Assembly: GCF_023635005.1 (NCBI RefSeq)
Contig: NZ_JAMLJM010000002.1
Location: 62,001-126,000 of the forward strand
Length of the DNA stretch: 64,000 bases
Origin: Flavobacterium luminosum
Lineage (GTDB): Bacteria > Bacteroidota > Bacteroidia > Flavobacteriales > Flavobacteriaceae
Direction of reading: 5' to 3'
The notes below the pieces were generated by a model. It saw only the letters and a program-made list of their open reading frames with translations. It ran no database searches and was not told the DNA's origin. Every line of letters starts with the position of its first letter. Position 1 is the stretch's first letter. The position numbers and the translations under genes were made by a program. This document shows, in pieces, positions 37,695 through 53,168 of the stretch.

Positions 37695-38003
37695 AAAAAT
37701 AAACAAAACTATATAAAATAAAACATATTGTTATTTTTATAACAAAATATTCTATTAAACTACTGTTTGTAAACTTTTTTTATTCTTATTAACACAGATT
37801 GAATTTTGAGGTTAAGAATTTTTTTAATCAATCTTTTGTAATATTTCGAATGGTTTTTAAATTCGATTGTTATAAAACAGTCCTGTTCTTCTCTCTTAAG
37901 TTGTATTCAAGAGCAACAGATGAAATAAAAGTTCAGACAAGTATTATTTTCTTCAGGAATTTATTATTTTTGTGGCACTTTACATAAGTCAAAATCAATA
38001 TTT
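37695..38003. other. Noncoding region between lysA and sucC
   Basis: About 310 very AT-rich bases separate divergent genes. It holds an AT-rich inverted repeat TTGTTAT (37728-37734), four T, ATAACAA (37739-37745). It also holds a -7 match TATTTTTG at 37965-37972 that would start sucC RNA near 37979. A 62-codon TTG-initiated frame (37799-37987) was judged not a gene. Nothing else was recognised. Confidence 0.5.
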
Positions 38004-39197
38004 ATGAATTTACACGAGTATCAAGGAAAACAAATATTAGCAAGCTACGGTGTACGTGTACAGCGTGGTTATGTGGCTCACAACGCTGAGGAGGCAGTTG
38101 CAAAAGCAAAACAACTTACCGAAGAAACGGGAACAGGTTGGCATGTGATTAAGGCTCAAATTCACGCCGGTGGTCGTGGAAAAGGAGGAGGAGTTAAATT
38201 AGCTAAAAATCTAGACCAAGTAAAAGAAATCGCAGGACAAATTATTGGTATGGATCTAATTACCCCTCAAACACCTCCAACAGGAAAAAGAGTTCATAAG
38301 GTATTGGTAGCAGAAGATGTATACTATCCTGGAGAAAGTGAAACAAAAGAATTTTACATGTCGGTTTTATTAAACCGTGGTAAAGGTCGTAATATGATTA
38401 TGTATTCTACCGAAGGTGGAATGGATATTGAAGAAGTTGCAGAAAAAACACCTCATTTAATTTTTACAGAAGAAATTGATCCTTCAGTAGGTTTACAAGG
38501 TTTTCAAGCAAGAAGAATTGCTTTTAACTTAGGTTTATCTGGTGAAGCATTCAAAGAAATGGTAAAATTTGTTGGTGCTTTATATAATGCATACATTGGT
38601 TCAGATTCATCAATGTTTGAAATTAATCCAGTTTTAAAAACTTCGGACAATAAAATTATGGCAGTAGATGCTAAAGTTTCTTTAGACGATAATGCTTTGT
38701 TCCGTCACGTTGATTTAGCTGAGATGCGCGATGTTACTGAAGAGCGTCCAATTGAAGTTGAAGCGAAAGAAGCAGGATTAAATTATGTTGACTTAGACGG
38801 TACTGTAGGTTGTATGGTAAATGGTGCTGGTCTAGCGATGGCAACAATGGACTTAATTAAATATGCGGGTTATGAGCCAGCTAACTTCCTTGATGTTGGA
38901 GGAACAGCTGATGCTAAACGTGTAGAAACTGCTTTCCGTATTATCTTAAAAGATCCAAACGTAAAAGCTATTTTAATCAATATTTTTGGTGGTATTGTTC
39001 GTTGTGACCGTGTGGCTCAAGGAGTAGTTGATGCTTACAAGAATATGGGTGATGCAATTAAAGTGCCAATCATTGTTCGTTTACAAGGTACTAACGCTGA
39101 AATTGCTAAAGAATTAATCGACAATTCAGGAATGCCAATTTTATCAGCAGTTCAATTCCAAGAAGCTGCAGATCAGGTAAAAGTAGCTTTGTCTTAA
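38004..39197 (+). CDS. sucC: Succinyl-CoA synthetase beta subunit
   Basis: ADP/GDP-forming subunit of the TCA-cycle enzyme making succinate from succinyl-CoA. The protein is 397 aa. It has an N-terminal ATP-grasp fold with MNLHEYQGKQIL, the nucleotide-binding HAGGRGKGGGVKLA region and EINPV, then a C-terminal CoA-ligase domain with NIFGGIVRCDRVA. The alpha subunit sucD is not next to it: a terminator and a minus-strand gene follow at once. A -7 element at 37965-37972 lies 31 bases upstream. Confidence 0.97.
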   Translation: MNLHEYQGKQILASYGVRVQRGYVAHNAEEAVAKAKQLTEETGTGWHVIKAQIHAGGRGKGGGVKLAKNLDQVKEIAGQIIGMDLITPQTPPTGKRVHKVLVAEDVYYPGESETKEFYMSVLLNRGKGRNMIMYSTEGGMDIEEVAEKTPHLIFTEEIDPSVGLQGFQARRIAFNLGLSGEAFKEMVKFVGALYNAYIGSDSSMFEINPVLKTSDNKIMAVDAKVSLDDNALFRHVDLAEMRDVTEERPIEVEAKEAGLNYVDLDGTVGCMVNGAGLAMATMDLIKYAGYEPANFLDVGGTADAKRVETAFRIILKDPNVKAILINIFGGIVRCDRVAQGVVDAYKNMGDAIKVPIIVRLQGTNAEIAKELIDNSGMPILSAVQFQEAADQVKVALS

Positions 39198-39220
39198 TTA
39201 GATAATTCAATTTTATATAG

Positions 39221-39251
39221 AAAACTCCCGAGACATTCTCGGGAGTTTTTG
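39221..39251 (+). terminator. Rho-independent terminator of sucC
   Basis: Stem AAAACTCCCGAG with its complement around an ACATT loop is followed by T residues. Confidence 0.92.
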
Positions 39252-39279
39252 TTTATATGTCTTGTCCTGAAAAAAAAAA

Positions 39280-39311
39280 TAAAAATCCGAGCATTGCTCG
39301 GATTTTTTTAT
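39280..39311 (-). terminator. Terminator of the DUF2892 gene
   Basis: Stem AAATCCGAGC with complement around an ATT loop, A and T runs on both sides. The stop codon of the minus-strand DUF2892 gene falls within its flanking T-run. Confidence 0.88.
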
Positions 39312-39523
39312 GGTTTGTTAGGAGTAGTCGGACAAGTACTGAATCCAAATACTTTGTAGAGAGGGCAAAAACCAATGAATGAGGTAATTACAAAAACGCC
39401 GGCTAACACAGTTAAAATCCATCCCAAAGTTCCTGTAATACTCCCATTATAGGTTAAATAGCCCATAATTATTGCAAGAAGTATTCTGATCATACGATCT
39501 GCTGCACTCATGTTTTTAGTCAT
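39308..39523 (-). CDS. DUF2892 small membrane protein
   Basis: 71 aa with two predicted membrane helices (about 10-28 and 33-51). It starts with the DUF2892 pattern M-S-A-A-D-R-M-I-R and ends with the characteristic CPLYKVFGFSTC, two cysteines near the second helix. The same domain is fused to rhodanese in YgaP-type sulfur-transfer proteins, so a role in thiol or sulfur handling is possible, not shown. It is a stand-alone gene. Confidence 0.8.
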   Translation of the reverse strand: MTKNMSAADRMIRILLAIIMGYLTYNGSITGTLGWILTVLAGVFVITSFIGFCPLYKVFGFSTCPTTPNKP

Positions 39524-39587
39524 AATGGTTTGTTTTTTAGGTTGATATCTTCAAATTTACTAAAAAACTATAACAAAAGAAATGCAG

Positions 39588-39980
39588 CTATTTCTTTTTT
39601 CCGTTTTTAAATTTTGTGTTTTCCATCACAGCCGTTTTTGTTGAAATAGGCTTATTGCTGTGAGTTGTTTTTTTAAAAATTTTTGTTGGTTTTGATTTTT
39701 CTGGGGTTGTTTTAGCAACAGGAGTATTCGCAGCAATAACCTCTTTCGGGTTTTTAGGATTTTCTTTGGTCCCTCGAAGATGAATTACCAATCCATTTAA
39801 GAAGTTTCTTAACACCTGATCTCCACATTCCATATATTTAGGATGGTCTTCTTGACGAAAGAAATTACCCAATTCTCCTTTTGACATTCTAAAATCAACT
39901 AACTCTAAGATTTCTACGATCTGATCATCTCTCAGTTGTAAAGCAACTCTTAATTTTTTAAATATTTCGTTGTTGTTCAT
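39588..39980 (-). CDS. DUF1456 family protein
   Basis: 130 aa. The N-terminal about 75 residues match the DUF1456/YehS type (NNEIFKKLRVAL, RDDQIVEILELV, KGELGNFFRQEDHPKY, VLRNFLNGLV). The C-terminal half is a Lys/Thr/Pro-rich, probably disordered tail with several KPTKIFKK-like basic patches that may bind nucleic acid. Function unknown. The TTG extension to 40001 was dropped in favour of the ATG at 39980. Confidence 0.78.
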   Translation of the reverse strand: MNNNEIFKKLRVALQLRDDQIVEILELVDFRMSKGELGNFFRQEDHPKYMECGDQVLRNFLNGLVIHLRGTKENPKNPKEVIAANTPVAKTTPEKSKPTKIFKKTTHSNKPISTKTAVMENTKFKNGKKK

Positions 39981-40128
39981 CGCATTTTTTTTGAGCCCCA
40001 AAGGTAATTGTTTTTCAATTCTTTCGGTTATAATTTCTAAAGATACTTTTTTGTGAATTATTATCGATTTGAAGCACTAAGTCTTTTTAGTTTCACTATC
40101 TAAAAACAAATAGTATTATTGAGAGTCT

Positions 40129-40159
40129 TTGCAATTATTCTTTGAAAAGGTTAGCTTTG
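40129..40159 (+). promoter_or_regulatory. Promoter (TTG-N20-TAGCTTTG) for the TerB-like gene
   Basis: TTG at 40129-40131 and TAGCTTTG at 40152-40159 with 20-base spacing. The longest frame begins inside this promoter, so the real start is the ATG at 40177. Confidence 0.7.
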
Positions 40160-40176
40160 CTGCAAATATCCAAATT

Positions 40177-40578
40177 ATGAATTCCCAGGAAGAAAAAATA
40201 GGTTTGTTATCTGAAATGATTGCTTTTGCAGTTATCGATGGAGTATTACACGATAGGGAATACGATTTTTTACTGATGGTTTCAGAGGAATTGGGAATCG
40301 ATAAAGATACTTTTTTACAATTGTTTAGTAAAAGAAATGAGTTTAAAGTGGTTAAAGATGAATTTCACAGAATTCTTCATTTTTACCGATTGGCTTTATT
40401 GATGCATTGCGATGGTATTTTACACGAAAGGGAAAGAATCTTTATCAATGAAATTGGCATCAATATGGGGTTAAATCCTCAAGCGACAAAGCGTATTTTA
40501 AAGCTTATGGAAGATTCACCCAATCAAATGGTTGAAGCAGAAACATTAATTACAGCTTTCCAAGAACAGCACAACTAA
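40177..40578 (+). CDS. TerB-like helical protein
   Basis: 133 aa, all-helical. It has two similar segments, AVIDGVLHDREYDFL and MHCDGILHERERIFI, each with the D-G-x5-E arrangement that forms the acidic metal site in TerB-like domains. No signal or membrane segment is seen. TerB domains occur in stress and membrane-associated systems, but here the gene is alone, with no ter genes around. It is convergent with the cytochrome c gene, 24 bases apart. Confidence 0.65.
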   Translation: MNSQEEKIGLLSEMIAFAVIDGVLHDREYDFLLMVSEELGIDKDTFLQLFSKRNEFKVVKDEFHRILHFYRLALLMHCDGILHERERIFINEIGINMGLNPQATKRILKLMEDSPNQMVEAETLITAFQEQHN

Positions 40579-40602
40579 CATTTCTACTTCCCCTTTGATA
40601 TA

Positions 40603-41577
40603 TTATGTAGAAGGTGTAAAACGAGTTACAGCATTATTTTTAGGTTCCAAAGATTTAAGATATTTAAATATGGCCGCTAAATCTTCTTCGGTCATACCCG
40701 CATACATATTCCATGGCATCATAGTTTGGAATTCTCCCGGTTTTACTTTAGGAGCTACATAATTTGGATTAGCATAATCTTTGAATCTTTTTATGAATTG
40801 TTTTTCAGTCCATTGTCCAATACCGGTAGGGTGTGGGGTAATGTTAGCTGATCTTAGCGTGGCGCCTCCAGGTAATTGAAATTCAAATCCACCAGCGAAA
40901 GGTTCTCCAACAAATTTTCCTTTTTCTTGTCTTGTGTGGCAATCGTAACAAGCGGCAGCAGTTGTTAAGTATTTACCATAAGCAACAGATTTTTTATCTG
41001 AAGGGATTGAAGAAAATTCAGCTTTTTGTGGGATCGTGTTAATGATAAAATTCATCGGGAAATCCGCAACAGAAGGTTCTGTTTTATGTTCAATCGGTTT
41101 TAGCGTTCTGATGTAAGCAATCACGGCAAATATATCTTTTTGATCCAATTGGCCATAGCTTATGTGTGGCATTACGGGAAATAAAGCTCTTCCGTCTTTG
41201 TTCACTCCAGAGGTAATAGCTCTGAAGATTTCTCCATCACTCCAAGATTTTAGGTTGGCAGGTGTAATATTACTTGCAACGAATTTCCCCGGGAAACCTA
41301 GTTTCTGATCAAAAATTTCTCCACCCATTCCCAATGTTCCTTCTTTTGGTGGTCCTGCAAAAGATCCCCAATCTCTGGAAGAATGACAGTCCATACACAC
41401 CATTACATTATTAGCCAAGTATTTTCCTCTGGCAATATTTTCTTTAGTCATCGCTACTTTTAGGTTAGGAACTTCTCCAACAGAAGGTAGCATCGTTTTG
41501 GCATAAGTAAGTGCTCCTAAAATAAGCACACAAGCAAGGATAAAAATGTACCCTAAAAATTTCATTATTCTTTTCAT
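40603..41577 (-). CDS. Dihaem c-type cytochrome
   Basis: 324 aa. An N-terminal membrane anchor or signal (about 5-26) is followed by two cytochrome c domains: haem 1 at C61-M-D-C64-H65 and haem 2 at C210-Y-D-C213-H214. Candidate axial methionines are in FPVMPHISY and MMPWNMYAGM. The layout recalls the dihaem subunits of alcohol or gluconate dehydrogenases and of related periplasmic electron carriers, but no dehydrogenase gene is adjacent. The start was placed at the ATG at 41577; the upstream TTG gives a polar extension ahead of the membrane helix. Maturation would use CcsBA at 10714. Confidence 0.85.
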   Translation of the reverse strand: MKRIMKFLGYIFILACVLILGALTYAKTMLPSVGEVPNLKVAMTKENIARGKYLANNVMVCMDCHSSRDWGSFAGPPKEGTLGMGGEIFDQKLGFPGKFVASNITPANLKSWSDGEIFRAITSGVNKDGRALFPVMPHISYGQLDQKDIFAVIAYIRTLKPIEHKTEPSVADFPMNFIINTIPQKAEFSSIPSDKKSVAYGKYLTTAAACYDCHTRQEKGKFVGEPFAGGFEFQLPGGATLRSANITPHPTGIGQWTEKQFIKRFKDYANPNYVAPKVKPGEFQTMMPWNMYAGMTEEDLAAIFKYLKSLEPKNNAVTRFTPST

Positions 41578-41915
41578 CTCATAAATTTTGGGTAAAAGTA
41601 TTTTTAATACGTTTTTATTCAAAATTTAGGCTTATTTTTTCGATAAAATATAAAAATAACGGGTTGAAATACCATTTTTTTAATAAATATGTTTTTTTGT
41701 TTGTAGAAGATATGATGTAATATGTTTTCGTAAAATACAGTTGATATCCGTTAGATTGAAGTTTTAATGGTTTAAATTCGAGTGTTTTAACGATGAAATA
41801 GAATAAAAAAGTATAACGAGTCGTTTTTGATTGTTTCAAAAAAGTTTTCTAAAAAAAACGATTGGATCACTCAAATATGAATCATTAAAAATGATACCCA
41901 AAAGTTTATGTAGGA
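41578..41915. other. Noncoding AT-rich region between cytochrome c and uvrB
   Basis: About 340 bases. A minus-strand octamer TACTTTTA at 41594-41601 is a near match to the -7 consensus and could drive the cytochrome gene. A 74-codon minus-strand frame (41615-41839) has no family features. No hairpin terminator for uvrB was recognised. Confidence 0.4.
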
Positions 41916-43904
41916 TTATATTTTTTCTTGAAGAGCTTTGATTTCATCTCTTAATTTAGCGGCTTGCATAAAATCAAGATCTTTGGCAGCTTTTTCCATA
42001 GTTTTTCGGAGTTCACGGATTTTCTTTTCGATTTCGGGTTTGCTTAAGTATTGACTTTCCGGTTCTGCAGCTTTTAAAATTTGATTTTCATAGTATTTAG
42101 TGGAAACAGAATTTCCGCTCAAAGCATTATTTAAACTCTTATTTAGGGCTTTCGGCTGTAGTCCATGTAGAGTATTATACTGGATTTGCTTTTCACGACG
42201 ATAGTTGGTTTCGTCTATGGTACGTTGCATACTGTCGGTAATCTTATCGGCATACATGATGGCTTTACCATTTACGTTTCGGGCTGCACGACCTACAGTT
42301 TGTGTTAACGAACGATGACTACGTAAAAAACCTTCTTTATCAGCATCTAAAATAGCGACTAAAGAAACTTCAGGTAAATCTAAACCTTCTCTTAATAGGT
42401 TGACACCAATCAGTACATCGAATAATCCTTTACGTAAATCCTGCATGATTTCTACACGTTCTAAAGTGTCTACATCACTATGAATATAACGACATCTGAT
42501 AGAAACTTTAGTGAGATATTTGGTTAGTTCTTCTGCCATACGTTTGGTTAAAGTAGTGACCAAAACTCTTTCGTCTACTTCACACCGTTGTTGGATTTCT
42601 TCAATCAGATCGTCTATTTGATTCGCGCTAGGACGAATTTCAATGATAGGATCCAATAAGCCAGTAGGACGAATGACTTGTTCTACATAAACCCCTTCTG
42701 ATTTCTGTAATTCATAATCTGCAGGAGTTGCCGAAACATAAACTACTTGATTTTGTAGTGCTTCAAATTCCTCAAATTTAAGAGGTCTATTATCCATAGC
42801 GGCTGGTAAACGAAAACCATATTCAACTAAATTCTCTTTTCGGCTTCTATCGCCACCGTACATGGCATGCACTTGAGAAATAGTCACGTGACTTTCATCG
42901 ACAATCATGAGGTAATCATCTGGGAAATAATCCAATAAACAGAAAGGTCTGGTTCCAGCTTCGCGACCGTCAAGATATCTAGAATAATTTTCGATTCCCG
43001 AACAATATCCTAACTCTCGAATCATTTCCAAATCAAAATTTGTTCGTTCTTCTAAACGTTTTGCCTCCAAATGTTTTCCAATTTCTTTGAAATAATCGAC
43101 TTGTTTTACTAAATCTTGTTGAATGTTCCAAATAGCATTTTGTAATACATCCGGAGAGGTAACAAACATATTTGCAGGATAAATATTTAATTTATCATAA
43201 CGTTCAATTACTTTAGACGTTTTAGTATCGAAGGCTTCAATTTCTTCAATATCATCCCCGAAAAAATGAATGCGAAACGGATCATCTGCATAACTAGGAA
43301 ATACTTCTACGGTATCCCCTTTAATACGAAAAGTTCCAGGGGTGAAATCACCTTCGGTACGAGCATATAAACTTTGTACTAATCGATGTAAAAATTTCGT
43401 ACGGGATATCGTTTGATCTCTTTCAATCGAAATTACGTTTTTTTGAAATTCAACGGGGTTGCCAATTCCATACAAACAAGATACCGATGCTACTACCAAA
43501 ACGTCTCTTCTTCCTGAAAGGAGTGCTGAAGTGGTACTTAATCGAAGTTTTTCTAATTCATCGTTGATAGACAAGTCTTTTTCAATGTAGGTTCCAGTTA
43601 CAGGAATATAGGCTTCGGGTTGGTAATAATCGTAATAAGAAACGAAGTACTGTACCGAATTGTTTGGAAAAAACTGCTTGAACTCAGAGTACAACTGGGC
43701 AGCTAAAGTTTTATTGTGTGCTAAAACTAATGTAGGTCTTTGGATTTCCTGCACAACATTTGCCATTGTGAAGGTTTTTCCCGAACCGGTTACCCCGAGA
43801 AGTGTTTGGTATTTTTCTCCATTAATAATGCCTTTGGCTAATTTTTCAATAGCTTGTGGCTGATCGCCCATTGGTTTGTAATCGGATACGACTTGGAATT
43901 TCAT
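41916..43904 (-). CDS. uvrB: Excinuclease ABC subunit B
   Basis: Damage-verification helicase of nucleotide excision repair. The protein is 662 aa. Walker A is GVTGSGKTFTMANV near residue 35, the beta-hairpin region is YYDYYQPEAYIP near 93, and the DEAD-type box is DESHVTI. Helicase motifs V-VI (REGLDLPEV, QTVGRAARN) are present. The UVR domain at the C-terminus (about 622-657) contacts UvrC. The ATG at 43904 is used: an in-frame TTG at 43925 lies inside the -7 element TATCTTTG (43923-43930). Confidence 0.97.
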   Translation of the reverse strand: MKFQVVSDYKPMGDQPQAIEKLAKGIINGEKYQTLLGVTGSGKTFTMANVVQEIQRPTLVLAHNKTLAAQLYSEFKQFFPNNSVQYFVSYYDYYQPEAYIPVTGTYIEKDLSINDELEKLRLSTTSALLSGRRDVLVVASVSCLYGIGNPVEFQKNVISIERDQTISRTKFLHRLVQSLYARTEGDFTPGTFRIKGDTVEVFPSYADDPFRIHFFGDDIEEIEAFDTKTSKVIERYDKLNIYPANMFVTSPDVLQNAIWNIQQDLVKQVDYFKEIGKHLEAKRLEERTNFDLEMIRELGYCSGIENYSRYLDGREAGTRPFCLLDYFPDDYLMIVDESHVTISQVHAMYGGDRSRKENLVEYGFRLPAAMDNRPLKFEEFEALQNQVVYVSATPADYELQKSEGVYVEQVIRPTGLLDPIIEIRPSANQIDDLIEEIQQRCEVDERVLVTTLTKRMAEELTKYLTKVSIRCRYIHSDVDTLERVEIMQDLRKGLFDVLIGVNLLREGLDLPEVSLVAILDADKEGFLRSHRSLTQTVGRAARNVNGKAIMYADKITDSMQRTIDETNYRREKQIQYNTLHGLQPKALNKSLNNALSGNSVSTKYYENQILKAAEPESQYLSKPEIEKKIRELRKTMEKAAKDLDFMQAAKLRDEIKALQEKI

Positions 43905-43982
43905 GGTATAAAAACTTGATTGCAAAGATACTAATTTTACCCAAGAAATACTTGCTTTTATGAGGTCTGACAGATAAGAGAA

Positions 43983-44030
43983 ACCGCAAACTGATAGGCT
44001 TTCAAAGTGTTTAACCTGTCAATTTGCGGT
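43983..44030. repeat. 16-16-16 inverted repeat upstream of uvrB
   Basis: Arms ACCGCAAACTGATAGG (43983-43998) and CCTGTCAATTTGCGGT (44015-44030) are complementary except for two positions, one of which is a G-U pair in RNA of either strand, around a 16-base loop. It sits after the DUF3570 stop and before the uvrB promoter. No T-run follows, so it is not a typical terminator. Confidence 0.55.
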
Positions 44031-44054
44031 AGCTGTATTTGGGAAAAATAAATT

Positions 44055-45266
44055 TTATTTAAATTTCATCGCCAAAGTTACAATGTGTGAATTTAGACCA
44101 TTGTCTCGGGTATAATATCCGTAACGTAATTCTAGTGAATTGATTCTTTTTACGCCAAAAATTCCTTGATCTGCATCGGTAATTTTGTAACCTAAACCAA
44201 TCATGTGACTTTTGAATTTGGATAGATCGAAGTCACTAGTGTAATATTCTTCACCCAATTGATGTGTGAATATGGGTTTGAAATATTTTGCAGAAGTCTG
44301 ATTGTAAAAACGATATGGCACCGATATAGACGAGAATGCTGAGAGTTTTAAAACAGGTTCAAAACTGATGGTATGTGATTTGATATCCCAATTGTCTTGA
44401 TAATATCTGTAAAAACTTCTCAGAATAATATTGTCACCTAAAAAGTAGTTCGCTCTAACACCGAACGGAATCTTAAAGCGTGTACTTGGTAGTTTTTCCG
44501 ATTTTAAATCGCCTCCGTCAAAATATACACGGTTAAATTTAGTGGCCAAGAGTCCTTCTTGATAACCCAAATCGGTTAATAAAGCAATTTGAAAGTTTTT
44601 ATTAATGACTTGAGAAAGGGTTAATCCTAAATTATACGAAGTACGAGGTTTGCTGTCTCCTTGTTTGGCGTCGTTATCTGATGGATTGTTCCTTAATTCT
44701 ATTGGGAGGATGACTTTCCAAGTATCGAAAAAGGCCATACCTTTTACGGAAAACTCTCGGTTTTTGTCTTTTGAGATTTTAGTAAAACCTCCATTAATTC
44801 CAATAGAGAAATAATCAAATTCTGCTGAACCAGAAAGACCTCCATTCAGAATATAATTTTTTTCTTCATTCTGAAATGCATAATTCAAGGAAGGATATAC
44901 TCTAACATCTTGGTAGGATGCAGAACTCACAGTGTTAGGGTCAATTTTATCGGAAGAAGCAGAGGTATAAGAATCTACGCCTAATTCGAAACCTAAATTA
45001 TGCTTGTTGTTATTTTTATCTTTTTTAGAGACTTTAACTTCAATAGTTGTGGCAATATCTCTGAGTTTCTCAGTTCCTTTACCACCTGTCACAGCCGAAT
45101 TGTCTCCATCTTGAGTATAATAACTTGTAATAAAGTTAACTTCTTCAATTTTGAGTTTTTGTTTTTGGTAAGCTGAAGTTGTATCTGTTGTAATATTTTC
45201 TTGAGCTTTGCTATGATTTCCAAATAAAAATGCCAATAGCGATGCGGTTATAATTCTTTTTTTCAT
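44055..45266 (-). CDS. DUF3570 protein, predicted outer-membrane beta-barrel
   Basis: 403 aa. A signal peptide (1-21, ending SKAQ) is followed by a long beta-strand-rich region with aromatic girdles and a final strand ending in MKFK, consistent with an outer membrane barrel. Residues 50-70 hold a conserved Gly/Asp-rich block (TQDGDNSAVTGGKGTEKL). Residues 98-104 read D-S-Y-T-S-A-S, close to the D-x-x-[ST]-G-A-[ST] motif modified by ApbE flavin transferases. It is last in the run thioredoxin-apbE-DUF4266-DUF3570, 17 bases after DUF4266. Function is unknown; flavinylation at Thr101 is my inference. Confidence 0.8.
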   Translation of the reverse strand: MKKRIITASLLAFLFGNHSKAQENITTDTTSAYQKQKLKIEEVNFITSYYTQDGDNSAVTGGKGTEKLRDIATTIEVKVSKKDKNNNKHNLGFELGVDSYTSASSDKIDPNTVSSASYQDVRVYPSLNYAFQNEEKNYILNGGLSGSAEFDYFSIGINGGFTKISKDKNREFSVKGMAFFDTWKVILPIELRNNPSDNDAKQGDSKPRTSYNLGLTLSQVINKNFQIALLTDLGYQEGLLATKFNRVYFDGGDLKSEKLPSTRFKIPFGVRANYFLGDNIILRSFYRYYQDNWDIKSHTISFEPVLKLSAFSSISVPYRFYNQTSAKYFKPIFTHQLGEEYYTSDFDLSKFKSHMIGLGYKITDADQGIFGVKRINSLELRYGYYTRDNGLNSHIVTLAMKFK

Positions 45267-45283
45267 GACTTTTTTATTAGAGA

Positions 45284-45490
45284 TTAGTTACAACCACATC
45301 CACCACCTGTTTTTCCTCCGTTAGCACCAGAGCTAGCTTCGCGATATAATTGGAAAGTATTCTCGAATTTTTCAGATTTTCTAGCAGCTAATTCCATGTC
45401 GGAATCGTTAATTTTCGATTTTTGATATTCTTTTACAGAAGTGCAACTCACACTTGACAAGAGTAAAAGAAAATAGGCTAAAGATTTCAT
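45284..45490 (-). CDS. DUF4266 small lipoprotein with C-terminal Gly-Cys-Gly-Cys
   Basis: 68 aa. The lipoprotein signal ends at SSVSC16, leaving about 52 mature residues: a charged helix (KINDSDMELAARKSEKFEN) followed by a Gly-rich tail ending G-G-G-C-G-C-N. The family is known only as a DUF that accompanies ApbE and DUF3570. The paired cysteines could bind a metal or act as a thiol pair with the thioredoxin encoded in the same operon; this is inference. It is 13 bases downstream of apbE. Confidence 0.8.
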   Translation of the reverse strand: MKSLAYFLLLLSSVSCTSVKEYQKSKINDSDMELAARKSEKFENTFQLYREASSGANGGKTGGGCGCN

Positions 45491-45503
45491 ATTTGAAGTT
45501 AAT

Positions 45504-46424
45504 TTATGTTAATGTTATATTGTTGGAAAAGTATTTTCGGTCGTAATCATCAATTATAATACAGCCTATGTGTTTTAACTGATTAATAAAATCCATACCG
45601 ACTTCAATTCCCATAACGGTGACAGGAGTGGCCAAAGCATCTGCAATTTCTGCATTTTCAGCAATAATAGTGACGCTTTTAATGCCACTTACCGGATAAC
45701 CCGTTTTTGGGTCTATGGTATGAGAATATTTTTTATTGTTGATGATAACGAATTTCTCATAGTTTCCAGAAGTGGCTACCGCCTTGTTTGTTATCTTAAA
45801 GGTAGAAAAAATATCGTTACGATGGTTAGGGTTAGCTACACCGATGGTCCAGGCTTGTCCGTTTTCTTGAGTTCCCCAGGCAGTTAAATCACCTGATGCA
45901 TTCACAATACCGCTTTCAACACCGTTTTGAAGCAAGATTTTTTTTGCCATTTCGGCAGCATATCCTTTCCCAATTCCTCCAAAACCGATGCGCATTCCTT
46001 TGTTTTTGAGAAAGATCGTTTTGTTTTCTTTGTCCAGAATGATATTCTCGTAATTGATAAGTGCTACCGATTTTTTTGCTGTTTCAGGATCTGGTAAAGA
46101 GGTCATTTGCGTATCGAAATTCCAAAATCTTTTGTCTAGGCTACCATAACTGATGTCGAAAGCACCTTGAGTGATTCTTGAAATCATTTGACAACGCTCG
46201 ATGAGGTTAAAAACTTCATCGGGCACAACAATGGGTTTATTTCCGGCATTTTCATTAATTTGAAATGTAACGCTGTCTGTTGAAAAGGTCGTGAGTAAAC
46301 GTTCGATTCGTTTTATTTCCTCTATGGCTAAATTAATTTTATCTGAGCACCAATTTTCATTGGAACCCACTACGGAAATCTCAAATCGATTTCCCATTAA
46401 TTTATCCACTTTTTTCCAAAGCAT
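45504..46424 (-). CDS. apbE: FAD:protein FMN transferase (ApbE)
   Basis: 306 aa. Attaches FMN through a phosphoester to Ser/Thr of target proteins. It has the N-terminal MGNRFEISVVG strand, the GGIGKGYAAE segment, GDLTAWG, YSHTIDPKTGYPV and the Mg-binding C-terminal block near NAEIADALATPV. Unusually there is no signal peptide or lipobox. The conserved fold starts at residue 10, and the upstream frame meets a stop 10 codons before the ATG. It starts 1 base after the thioredoxin gene's stop codon. The enzyme should therefore work in the cytoplasm unless exported by other means. Confidence 0.93.
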   Translation of the reverse strand: MLWKKVDKLMGNRFEISVVGSNENWCSDKINLAIEEIKRIERLLTTFSTDSVTFQINENAGNKPIVVPDEVFNLIERCQMISRITQGAFDISYGSLDKRFWNFDTQMTSLPDPETAKKSVALINYENIILDKENKTIFLKNKGMRIGFGGIGKGYAAEMAKKILLQNGVESGIVNASGDLTAWGTQENGQAWTIGVANPNHRNDIFSTFKITNKAVATSGNYEKFVIINNKKYSHTIDPKTGYPVSGIKSVTIIAENAEIADALATPVTVMGIEVGMDFINQLKHIGCIIIDDYDRKYFSNNITLT

Positions 46425-46425
46425 T

Positions 46426-46854
46426 TTATTTGAGTTTTGCGATGAATTCTTCTAGAGTTTCTGATGGTAAATGATCCCACGATTTAATTACTTTTCCTTC
46501 TTTATTCAATAGTAAAATCAATGGGAATAAACCATTACGGTTATATTTTTCAGCCAAAGTTTCATTTTCTTTGACAATTTCAGGAGTTAACTGATTTTTT
46601 TTCAATCTTGGAAAGTCAGCATTGTAAACTACTAGATTGTTATCGGCATAGGATTTAAATTGTTCGGTCAGTACAAATTGTTTTTTGAATTTTACACATG
46701 GCGCACACCAATCGGAACCAGAGAAGTAAAGCAATACATTTTTGTTTTCGGTTTGGGCTTTCTCTAAAGTTTGTGAGAAATTGAGTTTATTTGCTTCTTG
46801 AGCAGAAATTAGCACAGAAAACAGTAAAACGGCTAGTTGTAGGAGAGTTTTCAT
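46426..46854 (-). CDS. Exported thioredoxin-family protein
   Basis: 142 aa. A signal peptide (1-19, ending ISAQ) is followed by a thioredoxin fold with active site W-C50-A-P-C53 in the SGSDWCAPC context typical of DsbD-like/thioredoxin_7 periplasmic reductases. It is coupled to apbE (1-base gap) and follows the thiamine pyrophosphokinase gene by 11 bases. It is probably the reductant for cysteines in this cassette, for example the DUF4266 Gly-Cys-Gly-Cys tail. Confidence 0.87.
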   Translation of the reverse strand: MKTLLQLAVLLFSVLISAQEANKLNFSQTLEKAQTENKNVLLYFSGSDWCAPCVKFKKQFVLTEQFKSYADNNLVVYNADFPRLKKNQLTPEIVKENETLAEKYNRNGLFPLILLLNKEGKVIKSWDHLPSETLEEFIAKLK

Positions 46855-46865
46855 AAGTAAGGGAT

Positions 46866-47528
46866 TTAGTCAAAAGATTCAATTAATAATAGATTACCAG
46901 ATTCATGAGTGACAATAACCATGCCGTCTTCTGCTACATGATTACTGCTTCCTGTTCTGTATCCTATGGTAAGGGTGTCATTGGTAAGGGTGTAATATAA
47001 ATTTTCAGAGTGAATACCGGTTACTTCACCTATAGGTATTAACGAAATGATACTGTTTTTAGTGTACCATTTTTCAAATTTATTCGGGAGAAGAAAAATT
47101 TTGGAATGGTCGTCTATAATAACAATTTTTAATTGTTCTTTAAATCGGACAATATTGGTAAGATTGGTTATTGTATGATCTGCTCTACGTCCTGTGGCCC
47201 AAATTACATTTACCGCTTTATGTCCTCTTTCGATTAAATATTCAAAAGCTTTTTCTAAATCGGTTTTATTTTGATCCGGAGCATAGACAATTTCCAGTGG
47301 ATATTGTTGGTTGAGATAGTATTCAGGCGTAAATCCTCGATCAAAATCCCCTAAAAGCACATCAATTTTGATTCCTAATTCAAAAACTCGTTCAATTGCA
47401 GAATCCAGAACAACTACAAAAGGAGACCATTCTAATAACTGGCCCAATAATTCTTTTGAACATTCCGCTCCATTAGCAATAATTAAAGCAGGTTCTTGAT
47501 CATCGCGAACGATATGATGTGAAGACAT
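46866..47528 (-). CDS. Thiamine pyrophosphokinase
   Basis: 220 aa. Converts thiamine to thiamine pyrophosphate with ATP. The N-terminal catalytic part has the DFDRG block (LLGDFDRGF), PDQNKTDLEKA and the ATGRRADHTITN motif. The C-terminal beta domain binds thiamine. It is first in the run leading to thioredoxin-apbE-DUF4266-DUF3570 and may simply share their promoter. No TPP riboswitch pattern was seen upstream. Confidence 0.9.
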   Translation of the reverse strand: MSSHHIVRDDQEPALIIANGAECSKELLGQLLEWSPFVVVLDSAIERVFELGIKIDVLLGDFDRGFTPEYYLNQQYPLEIVYAPDQNKTDLEKAFEYLIERGHKAVNVIWATGRRADHTITNLTNIVRFKEQLKIVIIDDHSKIFLLPNKFEKWYTKNSIISLIPIGEVTGIHSENLYYTLTNDTLTIGYRTGSSNHVAEDGMVIVTHESGNLLLIESFD

Positions 47529-47606
47529 TTTAGATACGATTTACGAAGTTTGTTATGATATGTAAATTTATGAAACTTCTGTAAAAGTTACTCAATATTT
47601 CTCATC

Positions 47607-48428
47607 TTATTGAACTGTATAGTCTCTAGCGTCAACTTCTCCCAACGCAAAATATCCAAAAGGGAAGTTTTGTGAGTTGGTAACATTTATGATATTTCCG
47701 CGAAGAACCGCCGGAGGTGTGGCAAAAGGGTTTCCAGAATTGCCGCCTGAAGCAGAAATTAATTTCGACATGTAGTTGAAATACGCTTTGTCTATTCCTT
47801 GAACACTCAATTGCAACAGATTCCCTTTTTTGATATCATCATTGTAAAATCCAAACATTAAGTTGCCTTGGAAAAATTCATCACTAACGACACCGTATTC
47901 TGGAAAAACAATTTCTGGATTTTTAACTTTTAACAGATAATAGTTTTCTTGCTGACCATCGTCTTGAAAGAAAAATTTCACCTGAATTTCATCTTCACCA
48001 CTTATTCCGGGTTTGGTTTCTTGTTGAATGTCTTGAATAACCGGTGTAGCCAATAATTTACTGGTAGCTGTGTAGGTTTCTCCTTTGTACACCACTGTAA
48101 GGGTATAATTTGTATTGATTTGAGGAACGAAATTGGTACAAATATAATTCCCCGTATTGGCATCTTCAATAAAATTGAAAAGAGTGTTAGCATCGTCTTT
48201 TATACTTACTATAGCCCCAGATGCCGGAAGTATTTCACTGGTATAAAAATCGTTAGTTAAGCTTAATTTGATTACTTGAGTGGCGCCATCGGTTCCTTTG
48301 TACCATTTTATATTTGCATCTATAACTAATTTAGCTGGAGCATTTTCCAAAGGAATGTCAACTACATCTTGACAGGAAGTTAGTAGAAGAATGGTGGTAA
48401 GTAGCAACAGTATTTTTTTCATTGTCAT
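47607..48428 (-). CDS. DUF4249 lipoprotein, partner of the TonB receptor
   Basis: 273 aa. The lipoprotein signal ends at LLTSC19. An N-terminal beta-sandwich-like region (DIPLENAPAKLVIDANI) is typical of DUF4249. Such proteins accompany TonB receptors in Bacteroidota and may cap or assist the receptor at the outer membrane; ligand unknown. Its ATG overlaps the stop of the receptor gene in a TAATG arrangement, so it is translationally coupled to it. Confidence 0.85.
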   Translation of the reverse strand: MTMKKILLLLTTILLLTSCQDVVDIPLENAPAKLVIDANIKWYKGTDGATQVIKLSLTNDFYTSEILPASGAIVSIKDDANTLFNFIEDANTGNYICTNFVPQINTNYTLTVVYKGETYTATSKLLATPVIQDIQQETKPGISGEDEIQVKFFFQDDGQQENYYLLKVKNPEIVFPEYGVVSDEFFQGNLMFGFYNDDIKKGNLLQLSVQGIDKAYFNYMSKLISASGGNSGNPFATPPAVLRGNIINVTNSQNFPFGYFALGEVDARDYTVQ

Positions 48429-50809
48429 TAAAATTTAAAATTGTAAGAAACAGACGGAACAATTCCGAAAATGGATAAACGTGTAGCTTCATTCTTTCCA
48501 GTATCTCTGTTTTGAGCAAAAGAAATGGAAGCTGCATTTTTACGACTGTACACGTTGTAAATACTAAATACCCATTCGCCTTTCCAATTTCGAGAAATAT
48601 TCTTCTCGGGAGTCAAAGTTGCGGAAATATCCAAATGGTGAAAAGCCGGAAGTCTATTATTGTTGCGGGAATCGTAACTAGGAATAACAATATCTTGATA
48701 AACATATTTTCCAGAAGGATAGGTGACAGGTTGACCGGATTGTAGGATGAAATTAGCACCAAAAGTCCATTTTTTATTATAGATGTAATTTCCGGTAATA
48801 GCCAAATTGTGCGTTTTATCATAAGCGGATCGATACCAGTTACCATTATTGATACCGATTTCAGTTTCGGTTCTTCCAGGAGTTTGTTGTTCGGATCTAG
48901 AAAGTGTGTAGGCGATCCATCCTGAAAAATTTCCTGTATTTTTTCGCAATAAAAGCTCTAATCCGTAGGAACGCATTTTTCCATTTAAAATAACTTGTTC
49001 GATAGCTTCGTTGGCGATCAAATCGGCACCATCTATATAATCCATTCTGTTTTGAATGCCTTTGTAATAGGTTTCTACTTCTAAAGTATAATCATCATTT
49101 TTAAAATTCCTAAAATAACCTAAAGCAATTTGATCCGCAATTTGAGGTTTGATGTAATTGTCACTTGGTGTCCAAACATCGAGTGGCGTAGGAGAGGCTG
49201 TATTCGAAATTAATTGTAAATATTGAACCATGCGGTTGTAGCCCAATTTTAAAGATTGGTTGTTGTTAATTTCATACGCAACAGCTAATCGAGGTTCCAT
49301 GTAATTAAATTGTGCAATGGTCTTGTTTTTTCCAAAGTAACGGGTGCTTATGGGGGTTGCTTTTTCATAAATTTTTAAACTTTCATCATAAGTAACCGCC
49401 TGATTGTTTTGGTAGTAATTGATAGTCGAAGCACCTAAACGGTAAAACCAACTGTATCGTAATCCTGTCAAAATAGATATTTTATTTCCTATTGATTGTT
49501 CGGCATCTAGATAAATGGCAGGTTCTAGAGCGAATTTTTTATCCAATTGACGGAAATTGATACTAGAATCTTCGTCTATAGGTTCGATGGTTCCAGGATT
49601 AAAATCGTAATAAATGGCATTGGCACCATAGTTCAGTTTAAGATTGTTGGATAGGTAATGTTTGAAATCGTATTTTAGATTGTAATTTTTTATACCTGAT
49701 TTCCAGTTGAATCCAATAAAATCTAATGTTAATCCGTAATAGTAATCACTATAAATCATTGATAAATTGGAAAATAATTTATCAGAAAAAAGATGATTCC
49801 ATCGTAAATTTAATGTAGTGTTTCCATAAGTATTGGTAAAACTATCGCCAATAGAAAAAATATCACGACCAAAATAACCCGAAAGGTATAAAGTATTGTT
49901 TTTGTTGAGTTTGTAGTTTAATTTGGTGTTTAAATCATAAAAATAAGCCAAATTGTTATTGTCTGTAAATTTCAAAAAAAGATGAGCATAAGAACCACGA
50001 CCTCCGACCAAAAACGAACCTTTTTCCTTAACAATTGGACCTTCTGCAAGAATTCGGCTAGTTATTAAACCAACACCGCCATTCATGCTGAATTTGTTAC
50101 TGTTACCGTCCTTTTGGTAAATATCCAAAACCGAAGAAGCTCTTCCTCCAAATCGCGCAGGAATTCCTCCTTTGTATAGTTTTAAATCTTTAATAGCATC
50201 TGGATTGAAAACAGAGAAAAATCCGAATACATGCGAAGAATTGTATATGGTTGCTTCGTCTAACAAAACTAAATTTTGATCGGCACTACCACCACGAACA
50301 TTAAAGCCCGATTGACCTTCTCCTGCATTGGTTACGCCCGGTAAAAACAATAGCGATTTGATCACATCAACTTCTCCCAAAACTACCGGCATTTGTTTTA
50401 TAGACTGAATACTCAGTTTGTTGACGCTAATTTCCGGTTTTTTGATATTAGCTTTATTTTTAGAGGTGATGACTACTTCATCTAATTGTTTGGATGTTTC
50501 AGTTTCTTCTGATAAACGAAGGTTGATGCGAGTGTTGTCGTTAAGGGAGACTTTTCTAATGTCTGTGTCATATCCCGAGTAATTTACTTCAAGAGTATAA
50601 TCACCTTTTGGTAATGTCATTGAAAAGAATCCGTATTCATTGGTGAATACAGAAGTATTAGTCTCCACAATCGAAACGGTTACCCCAATTAATGTTTCGT
50701 TGGTTTTAGCGTCTGTTATGCTTCCGCTCAAAGTGATTTTATCTTGAGCATTCAGATTATAACCGAAAAATAATAAAAAAAATGAAAACCAAAATCTCAA
50801 TAAGTTCAT
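48428..50809 (-). CDS. TonB-dependent outer membrane receptor
   Basis: 793 aa. A signal peptide (1-21, ending LNAQ) is followed by a carboxypeptidase-regulatory-like (CarboxypepD_reg) beta-sandwich at about 24-105 (ITDAKTNETLIGVTVSI). A plug domain has the motif VRGGSADQNLVLLDEATIYN, and the 22-strand barrel ends with a terminal aromatic strand (VSYNFKF). Without a SusD partner but with DUF4249 next to it, glycan uptake is less likely than uptake of another nutrient or a peptide. The substrate is unknown. It ends by overlapping DUF4249. Confidence 0.92.
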   Translation of the reverse strand: MNLLRFWFSFFLLFFGYNLNAQDKITLSGSITDAKTNETLIGVTVSIVETNTSVFTNEYGFFSMTLPKGDYTLEVNYSGYDTDIRKVSLNDNTRINLRLSEETETSKQLDEVVITSKNKANIKKPEISVNKLSIQSIKQMPVVLGEVDVIKSLLFLPGVTNAGEGQSGFNVRGGSADQNLVLLDEATIYNSSHVFGFFSVFNPDAIKDLKLYKGGIPARFGGRASSVLDIYQKDGNSNKFSMNGGVGLITSRILAEGPIVKEKGSFLVGGRGSYAHLFLKFTDNNNLAYFYDLNTKLNYKLNKNNTLYLSGYFGRDIFSIGDSFTNTYGNTTLNLRWNHLFSDKLFSNLSMIYSDYYYGLTLDFIGFNWKSGIKNYNLKYDFKHYLSNNLKLNYGANAIYYDFNPGTIEPIDEDSSINFRQLDKKFALEPAIYLDAEQSIGNKISILTGLRYSWFYRLGASTINYYQNNQAVTYDESLKIYEKATPISTRYFGKNKTIAQFNYMEPRLAVAYEINNNQSLKLGYNRMVQYLQLISNTASPTPLDVWTPSDNYIKPQIADQIALGYFRNFKNDDYTLEVETYYKGIQNRMDYIDGADLIANEAIEQVILNGKMRSYGLELLLRKNTGNFSGWIAYTLSRSEQQTPGRTETEIGINNGNWYRSAYDKTHNLAITGNYIYNKKWTFGANFILQSGQPVTYPSGKYVYQDIVIPSYDSRNNNRLPAFHHLDISATLTPEKNISRNWKGEWVFSIYNVYSRKNAASISFAQNRDTGKNEATRLSIFGIVPSVSYNFKF

Positions 50810-50883
50810 GCTGATTTTTTTATGTTTCTATGATGGTAAAGATCGATTTTTTTTAGCAAAACACTTGTTAATATAGGGTTAAT

Positions 50884-50916
50884 AAAAAAGGCGACCTGAA
50901 AAGATCGCCTTTTTTT
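50884..50916 (-). terminator. Rho-independent terminator of icd
   Basis: Stem AAAAAAGGCGA with its complement and a 10-base loop, A and T runs on both sides. It lies just after the minus-strand icd stop at 50934 and upstream of the TonB receptor start. Confidence 0.88.
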
Positions 50917-50933
50917 ACATTTAAAATGTAATC

Positions 50934-53168
<2,235 letters not shown>

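Follow-up and report, generated by a model that had tools for sequence, protein, structure and literature searches.

A Flavobacterium luminosum variant of the ApbE/DUF3570/thioredoxin/DUF4266 flavinylation cluster, with an apparently signal-less ApbE and candidate flavin sites on a predicted outward-facing barrel loop

Clusters of genes encoding ApbE (flavin adenine dinucleotide [FAD]:protein flavin mononucleotide [FMN] transferase), DUF3570, a thioredoxin-like protein of PF13899, and DUF4266 have already been described (PMC8238504, eLife 2021). In the passages of that paper used here, 285 clusters include DsbD (DUF3570 in 227 of them, thioredoxin in 183, and DUF4266 in 221), and 316 four-gene clusters have no adjoining DsbD. 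The same passages propose a hybrid thioredoxin/flavin electron-transfer system that is fed by DsbD in some bacteria, remark on the C-terminal CXC of DUF4266, and give 25 VIT1 genes as a hint of iron. They also report that DUF3570 of Chlorobium luteolum, coexpressed with its own ApbE in Escherichia coli, is covalently flavinylated at two [S/T]GA[S/T] sites, a motif also worded as "[S/T]GA[S/T]-like." Here, we analyze a cassette of these four families in Flavobacterium luminosum, located at 46854-44055 on the minus strand of a 64,000-nucleotide stretch of DNA that we call the window (NCBI RefSeq assembly GCF_023635005.1, contig NZ_JAMLJM010000002.1, positions 62,001 to 126,000). A preliminary description of this DNA took the cassette for a candidate undescribed system; the gene set, the hybrid proposal, and DUF3570 flavinylation are all reported in the parts of PMC8238504 consulted, so this claim falls. 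In the literature searched, DUF3570, DUF4266, PF12094, and PF14086 were named in PMC8238504 only, and nothing further on the system came from looking for flavinylation in connection with thioredoxin and the outer membrane, or for a flavinylated outer-membrane β-barrel (barrel matches judged by title).

We confirmed the four open reading frames (ORFs), all on the minus strand with intergenic gaps of 1, 13, and 17 bases, and all four Pfam families (DUF3570, DUF4266, ApbE, and Thioredoxin_7) scored above their curated cut-offs, in agreement with the gene arrangement first noted. DUF4266 had been said to end in Gly-Cys-Gly-Cys; the Cys-Gly-Cys tail is present, but the final residue is asparagine. 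The features of the cassette, in window positions, are as follows:

46426..46854, minus strand: exported thioredoxin-like protein (Thioredoxin_7, PF13899), 142 amino acids, with signal peptide and CAPC (Pfam E 4e-11; hydrophobic N-terminus score 3.19)
46696..46707, minus strand: thioredoxin CxxC motif, Cys50-Ala-Pro-Cys53 (sequence motif)
45504..46424, minus strand: ApbE FAD:protein FMN transferase without a recognizable export signal (PF02424), 306 amino acids (Pfam E 1e-80, 271.6 bits against a cut-off of 25.6; N-terminus score 0.49)
45284..45490, minus strand: DUF4266 small lipoprotein (PF14086), 68 amino acids, with a Gly-rich tail and the end GGGCGCN (Pfam E 5e-19, 69.6 bits against 27)
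45443..45445, minus strand: predicted lipobox cysteine of DUF4266, Cys16 (sequence motif)
45290..45298, minus strand: C-terminal Cys-Gly-Cys of DUF4266, residues 65-67 (sequence motif)
44055..45266, minus strand: DUF3570 (PF12094), 403 amino acids, predicted 16-strand outer-membrane β-barrel and expected flavin carrier (Pfam E 4e-31, 108.5 bits against 25; AlphaFold2 model)
44910..44966, minus strand: DUF3570 residues 101-119, disordered loop L2 with both candidate flavin sites, predicted to face outward (predicted local distance difference test [pLDDT] < 50 for residues 104-117; flanked by strands 88-100 and 120-123/126-133)
44955..44975, minus strand: candidate flavinylation motif 1, D98-x-x-T-S-A-S104 (alignment conservation)
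44916..44927, minus strand: candidate flavinylation motif 2, S114-S-A-S117 (aligned position)

Judged by its sequence, the window cassette is a member of the described ApbE/DUF3570/thioredoxin/DUF4266 flavinylation cluster in a variant form. As in the published clusters (PMC8238504, passages used), the four families are encoded together and DUF4266 carries a C-terminal CXC. The window differs from them in that its ApbE lacks a recognizable export signal and its motifs read TSAS and SSAS, two features that the preliminary description does not mention. Those passages mention neither a signal-less cassette ApbE, nor an outer-membrane place for the flavin loop, nor a Gly-to-Ser change in motif 1 of Bacteroidia. 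DsbD is not part of the window cluster: the only DsbD_TM match of the genome (G000:C19, in a 707-amino-acid ORF) is on contig C19 and the window is on C12. Therefore, we file the cassette with the 316 DsbD-less clusters and not under the "DsbD system" label. The thioredoxin also falls below the cut-off of the DsbH disulfide reductase equivalog (NCBIfam NF043050; 82.7 bits against 190).

This locus is of interest mainly for two predictions, that its ApbE has no export signal and that its flavin loop faces outward, which together suggest that flavin is attached inside the cell before export. We favor the explanation that the cassette is a variant of the known thiol/flavin device in which DUF3570 is flavinylated in the cytosol and then exported, so that its flavins would lie on the cell surface, and we give this a probability of roughly 0.5; cytosolic, pre-export flavinylation taken by itself stands at about even odds. 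In the proposed mechanism, the dedicated, signal-less ApbE would act in the cytosol, attaching FMN to Ser104 and Ser117 of new, unfolded DUF3570. Sec would export the protein, and its insertion as a 16-strand outer-membrane barrel would place the flavin loop outward. DsbD, whose gene lies elsewhere in the genome, would carry reducing equivalents from the cytosol to the exported thioredoxin. The thioredoxin would reduce the thiols of CGC in the flexible DUF4266 tail, and the lipoprotein would in turn serve the surface flavins. These would pass electrons to, or take them from, an extracellular partner, possibly ferric iron. The step that we would defend first is that the candidate flavin sites end on an outward barrel loop, as predicted by the structural model.

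DUF3570 was modeled with AlphaFold2 from 55 sequences (model m9556bb5d2e2b; mean pLDDT of 86.1 and predicted template modeling score of 0.79), and 16 strands were counted from the DSSP list. Both candidate flavin serines, S104 and S117, fall in a single disordered loop of the model (104-117, pLDDT < 50) between strands 3 and 4. In outer-membrane proteins, both termini of the barrel are in the periplasm; therefore, the flavin loop is predicted to face outward, alongside the other long loops, its side being inferred by counting strands and not from coordinates. Foldseek and VIA-align listed porins and similar barrels as fold matches, with Foldseek E values down to 1e-9 and VIA Z values of ~15-18 for CymA, OmpG, and OccK and 21 for a BamA model. 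The predicted protein resembles the porin-type barrels CymA, OmpG, and OccK in fold and differs from them in its disordered, conserved outward loop with flavinylation-like motifs. The even strand number, the fold matches, and a signal score of 2.53 are consistent with an outer-membrane barrel, and the model thus supports what had been predicted from the sequence at the outset.

Conservation also points to the outer side of the predicted barrel. Across 157 DUF3570 rows, 18 of 216 strand residues are at least 93% conserved, and these are shifted toward the outer end (relative height averaging 0.77 compared with 0.48; Mann-Whitney p 1e-4), a bias that is also seen at thresholds from 0.8 to 0.95. 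By segment, the outward loop L1 (0.88) and the two-residue loop L3 (0.80) rank highest in Bacteroidia, and the flavin loop L2 (0.72) is approximately fifth of 31, tied with strand 13; conservation is low, however, in outward loop L4 (0.45), and the inner turn T3 (0.63) equals L1 when all 157 rows are taken together. The position of the conserved residues suggests that the working face of DUF3570 is probably the outward one.

To score export signals, we used a hydrophobicity rule of our own: the score is the highest Kyte-Doolittle mean of any 10-residue stretch that follows an ATG, GTG, or TTG start lying sufficiently far upstream, and the threshold is 2.0. The thioredoxin (3.19), DUF3570 (2.53), and DUF4266 (2.23) of the window all have hydrophobic N-termini, whereas that of ApbE (MLWKKVDKLMGNRF...) is non-hydrophobic and scores 0.49. 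By this rule, the window ApbE does not qualify as a secreted ApbE with a signal peptide or lipobox. We then scored the 80 nearest loci, which are the best 80 of at least 589 DUF3570 relatives and therefore no random sample. None of 79 cassette ApbEs passed the threshold (two at 1.5-2; the cut locus L047 and a second, off-cassette ApbE of L044 were left out). Passing it were 78 of 79 thioredoxins, 78 of 81 scored DUF4266 proteins (82 found), and 76 of 79 scored DUF3570 proteins (81 found; the remaining three at 1.5-2). All 30 ApbE matches of 18 further genomes formed a separate set. There, 0 of 11 cassette ApbEs of Chlorobiaceae and 11 of 11 non-cassette ApbEs (all at least 2.27) were over the threshold; the 8 other cassette ApbEs comprised 3 signal-less proteins (G193, G073, and G003), 4 over the threshold, and 1 at 1.93. 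Genomes G193, G073, G003, and G210 each combine a signal-less cassette ApbE with a signal-bearing ApbE outside the cassette. The family labeled f70 is taken to be Chlorobiaceae because the FMO protein, which we assume to mark green sulfur bacteria, was found in 5 of 5 f70 genomes tested.

In a tree of 81 ApbEs, which includes 22 of the 79 cassette ApbEs from the nearest loci, the signal trait changes four times, and Chlorobiaceae and the window group form separate signal-less groups. The tree was rooted at its midpoint and has several long branches, so it is uncertain how often the signal was lost and in which direction the changes ran. One ApbE, L154 (score of 1.93), was counted as signal-less in the scoring and as signal-bearing in the tree, and L177 is divergent. 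H235, D262, and T266, which presumably have a catalytic role, are among the residues kept in at least 97% of 113 ApbEs.

Two characterized ApbEs offer a comparison. The window pair shares its substrate family and two motif serines with the C. luteolum pair (PMC8238504, passages used), and the 11 cassette ApbEs scored in Chlorobiaceae relatives are signal-less too. The cytosolic ApbE of Klebsiella pneumoniae likewise has no signal peptide and one client (PMC12052999, in the portion used); that client is a soluble fumarate reductase, whereas export to the outer membrane is predicted for the client in the window.

Candidate flavin sites were compared in 157 DUF3570 rows longer than 330 amino acids (154 distinct). 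Motif 1 reads [TS]SAS in 109 of 112 Bacteroidia rows, ASAS in 2, and TTAS in 1, with serine at the central glycine place in 111. It reads [ST]GAS in 40 of 40 Chlorobiaceae rows (37 distinct), in contrast to TSAS in the window. Elsewhere, both f68 rows have SSAS, both f87 rows have TSAS, and one f72 row has TGAT. Ser104 is kept in 156 of 157 rows, and D98, S102, A103, and S104 are invariant in the 55 sequences of alignment A2. Motif 2 was compared outside Chlorobiaceae, where 29 of 40 rows hold another string at this position, several with SGAS a few columns on; the 112 Bacteroidia rows have SSAS (82), SGAS (11), TSAS (8), or other strings (11).

Several observations weigh against the favored explanation, the first of them in the motifs. 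The flavinylation motif is given as D-x-x-[S/T]-G-A-[S/T] in the portion of PMC12052999 used, which also states that a Gly-to-Ala change approximately halves flavinylation in another substrate. At the corresponding alignment columns, the window has TSAS and SSAS; thus, the strict [S/T]GA[S/T] is not matched, while the closing Ala-Ser is kept. For this reason, we call the cassette a variant, and its candidate flavin sites are plausible, not canonical. The serine at the glycine place in nearly all Bacteroidia rows, together with the effect of glycine substitution elsewhere, would also fit a Bacteroidia variant that is no longer flavinylated at these sites, with TSAS/SSAS forming a structural loop and ApbE serving another client. 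We consider this quite improbable: S102, A103, and S104 do not vary in the 55 sequences, Ser104 is nearly universal, and ApbE lies beside DUF3570 in 80 of 80 nearest loci. The genome profile search also gave one ApbE match in the window genome, that of the cassette, and no match to FMN_bind, NQR2/RnfD, or DUF2271. Therefore, DUF3570 is the only client among the four families sought.

Other points against cytosolic flavinylation concern export. The signal call rests on our own rule and not on SignalP. In a wider set of 120 stretches (the 80 nearest loci and 40 chosen further ones), 21 of 32 cassette ApbEs from the further stretches are over the threshold and 11 are not. Signal-bearing cassette ApbEs include 17 from other Bacteroidia, which form a second, mostly Flavobacteriaceae cassette type, and all those of f68 and f87 save one borderline case; because of them, cytosolic flavinylation is not universal. 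Within the window's otherwise signal-less ApbE group, L162 (3871-5430, plus strand) has an open frame of 520 residues that encodes a natural thioredoxin-ApbE fusion with a signal peptide at its N-terminus, and this ApbE would be periplasmic, being fused behind an exported thioredoxin. The cloning strategy for the C. luteolum pair is called "similar" to one that used an apbE truncated to remove its signal peptide (PMC8238504, passages used), and the authors may therefore have seen a signal on that ApbE.

These cases, along with the periplasmic location of well-studied ApbEs (PMC12052999, portion used), are what would be expected if the same cassette were flavinylated in the periplasm, with the signal-less ApbE leaving the cytosol by an unrecognized route or together with the thioredoxin. 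This alternative seems unlikely, given that 0 of 79 cassette ApbEs in the nearest loci pass the signal threshold. A hidden signal reached by frameshift or read-through from the thioredoxin gene was tried as a single general mechanism and rejected: 75 thioredoxin-ApbE pairs are spread over the three relative frames (8, 47, and 20 pairs), and a single frameshift or read-through could not account for all of them, even if one frame is the commonest with 47 and L162 is a true fusion.

The remaining points against our explanation concern the models and the Sec step. Foldseek template modeling scores of DUF3570 to porins are just 0.26-0.46. In a model of a read-through DUF4266-barrel chain, DUF4266 was not placed, its tail and linker having pLDDT < 50 over residues 30-93; therefore, this model speaks neither for nor against docking. 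Passage of an FMN-bearing chain through Sec is a putative step; Bonardi et al. are said to have reported in 2011 that a bulky group can pass Sec.

If cytosolic flavinylation is nevertheless extended to the relatives, in many Bacteroidia and the Chlorobiaceae an outer-membrane barrel would receive its FMN in the cytosol, ahead of export, with the ApbE signal apparently lost more than once and covalent flavins displayed on the surface. Reducing power would then cross the outer membrane through a lipoprotein Cys-Gly-Cys tail and not through cytochromes, and the Bacteroidia motif would be D-x-x-[ST]-S-A-S. We offer this joint reading tentatively and think it somewhat doubtful as a whole.

The relay to the flavins would depend on the thioredoxin and DUF4266. 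DUF4266 ends in GGCGCN in all 81 scored relatives (of 82), of which 76 have a lipobox-like pattern, and C50, G51, C52, and N53 are invariant in the 27 sequences of alignment A3. Among the 79 nearest thioredoxin relatives, the first C..C match is CxPC in 78 and CNIC in one. Both DUF proteins had been put forward as ApbE clients. For DUF3570 this is likely, given the flavinylated C. luteolum protein (PMC8238504, passages used); nothing was found that marks DUF4266 as one. As a flavin client, DUF4266 was rejected: conservation is strongest in its Gly-rich tail and CGCN, and the REGAS-like stretches of its tail, REASS in the window, fail D-x-x-[ST]-G-A-[ST].

The four families are linked much more often than expected by chance. 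Among 395 genomes sampled from the phylum, 118 have DUF3570; DUF4266 was found in 113, every one of which also has DUF3570 (by genus, 25 of 170 for each family). This sample is far from independent because 67 of the 118 belong to f70. In a class sample of 149 genomes, both occur in the same 18. DUF4266 and ApbE are present in 80 of 80 nearest loci and thioredoxin in 79, the sole miss, L047, being cut by a contig end. The statistical co-occurrence anticipated in the preliminary description is thus found. Thioredoxin was counted in the 80 nearest loci only, as its profile also caught ApbE through the fused L162 seed.

Linkage is looser in the 40 further stretches. Across the 120 stretches, ApbE is missing from L150, L153, L157, L158, L167, L169, L171, and L172, DUF4266 from L150, L167, and L171, and DUF3570 from L172 and L178. 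Some of these genomes are split: G432 has DUF3570 (L150) ~41 kb from the remaining genes (L178), G056 has DUF3570 (L171) and DUF4266 (L172) on separate contigs, and the single ApbE of G191 (L153) is on another contig. Five genomes have DUF3570 without DUF4266 (G343, G355, G404, G474, and G488), and three of the 80 nearest loci have an altered gene order with DUF3570 first (L036, L038, and L042). Copy number varies as well. A Chlorobiaceae array, L156 (G331:C45:26000-45900), has four ORFs for DUF3570, two for DUF4266, and one for ApbE in a 20-kb span, and some genomes of this family have up to nine DUF3570 matches. L073 and L094 show two long DUF3570 ORFs in one Mucilaginibacter locus.

Genes near the cassette raise a different source of electrons. 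Of 118 DUF3570 loci, 36 have a gene for a Rieske [2Fe-2S] protein in the same orientation as DUF3570, in most cases ~0.5 kb past the thioredoxin gene (e.g., L073:1362-1814), and 13 have a cytochrome b561 gene nearby (6 on the same strand); neither "Rieske" nor "b561" appears in the main text of PMC8238504. Electrons might accordingly come from the quinol pool through cytochrome b561 and the Rieske protein instead of DsbD and thiols, with the thioredoxin and DUF4266 just maintaining a metal or thiol site. We see little chance of this, since both genes are absent from most loci and the thioredoxin and DUF4266 are nearly universal in the nearest 80. VIT1 is found in 22 of 118 DUF3570 loci (20 on the same strand). 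Rieske, VIT1, and cytochrome b561 are all absent among the eight window proteins scanned by Pfam, other ORFs of 38000-53000 having been judged by eye only. The DsbD neighbor count is left out because its profile also matched thioredoxins (DsbD has a thioredoxin domain).

The window genome is 2.65 Mb and 99.98% complete, and its closest relatives among the matches listed are Flavobacterium species (F. suncheonense DUF3570 is 80% identical). The gene downstream of the cassette encodes UvrB. Two other genes of the window are as follows:

46866-47528, minus strand: thiamine diphosphokinase gene, 11 bases upstream of the thioredoxin gene (a relative lies close to the cassette in 7 of 80 nearest loci)
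40603-41622, minus strand: 339-amino-acid, apparently cytochrome c-like protein with a hydrophobic N-terminus, CMDCH, and CYDCH (two CxxCH), ~2.4 kb from the cassette

If the proposed mechanism is true, the cassette would provide a heme-free electron route across the Gram-negative outer membrane, and an exported outer-membrane protein could carry a covalent flavin through Sec. A dedicated ApbE could dispense with its signal because cells make FAD in the cytosol and the target loop finally lies outside. The Bacteroidia sites would also give a wider motif for finding flavinylation sites.

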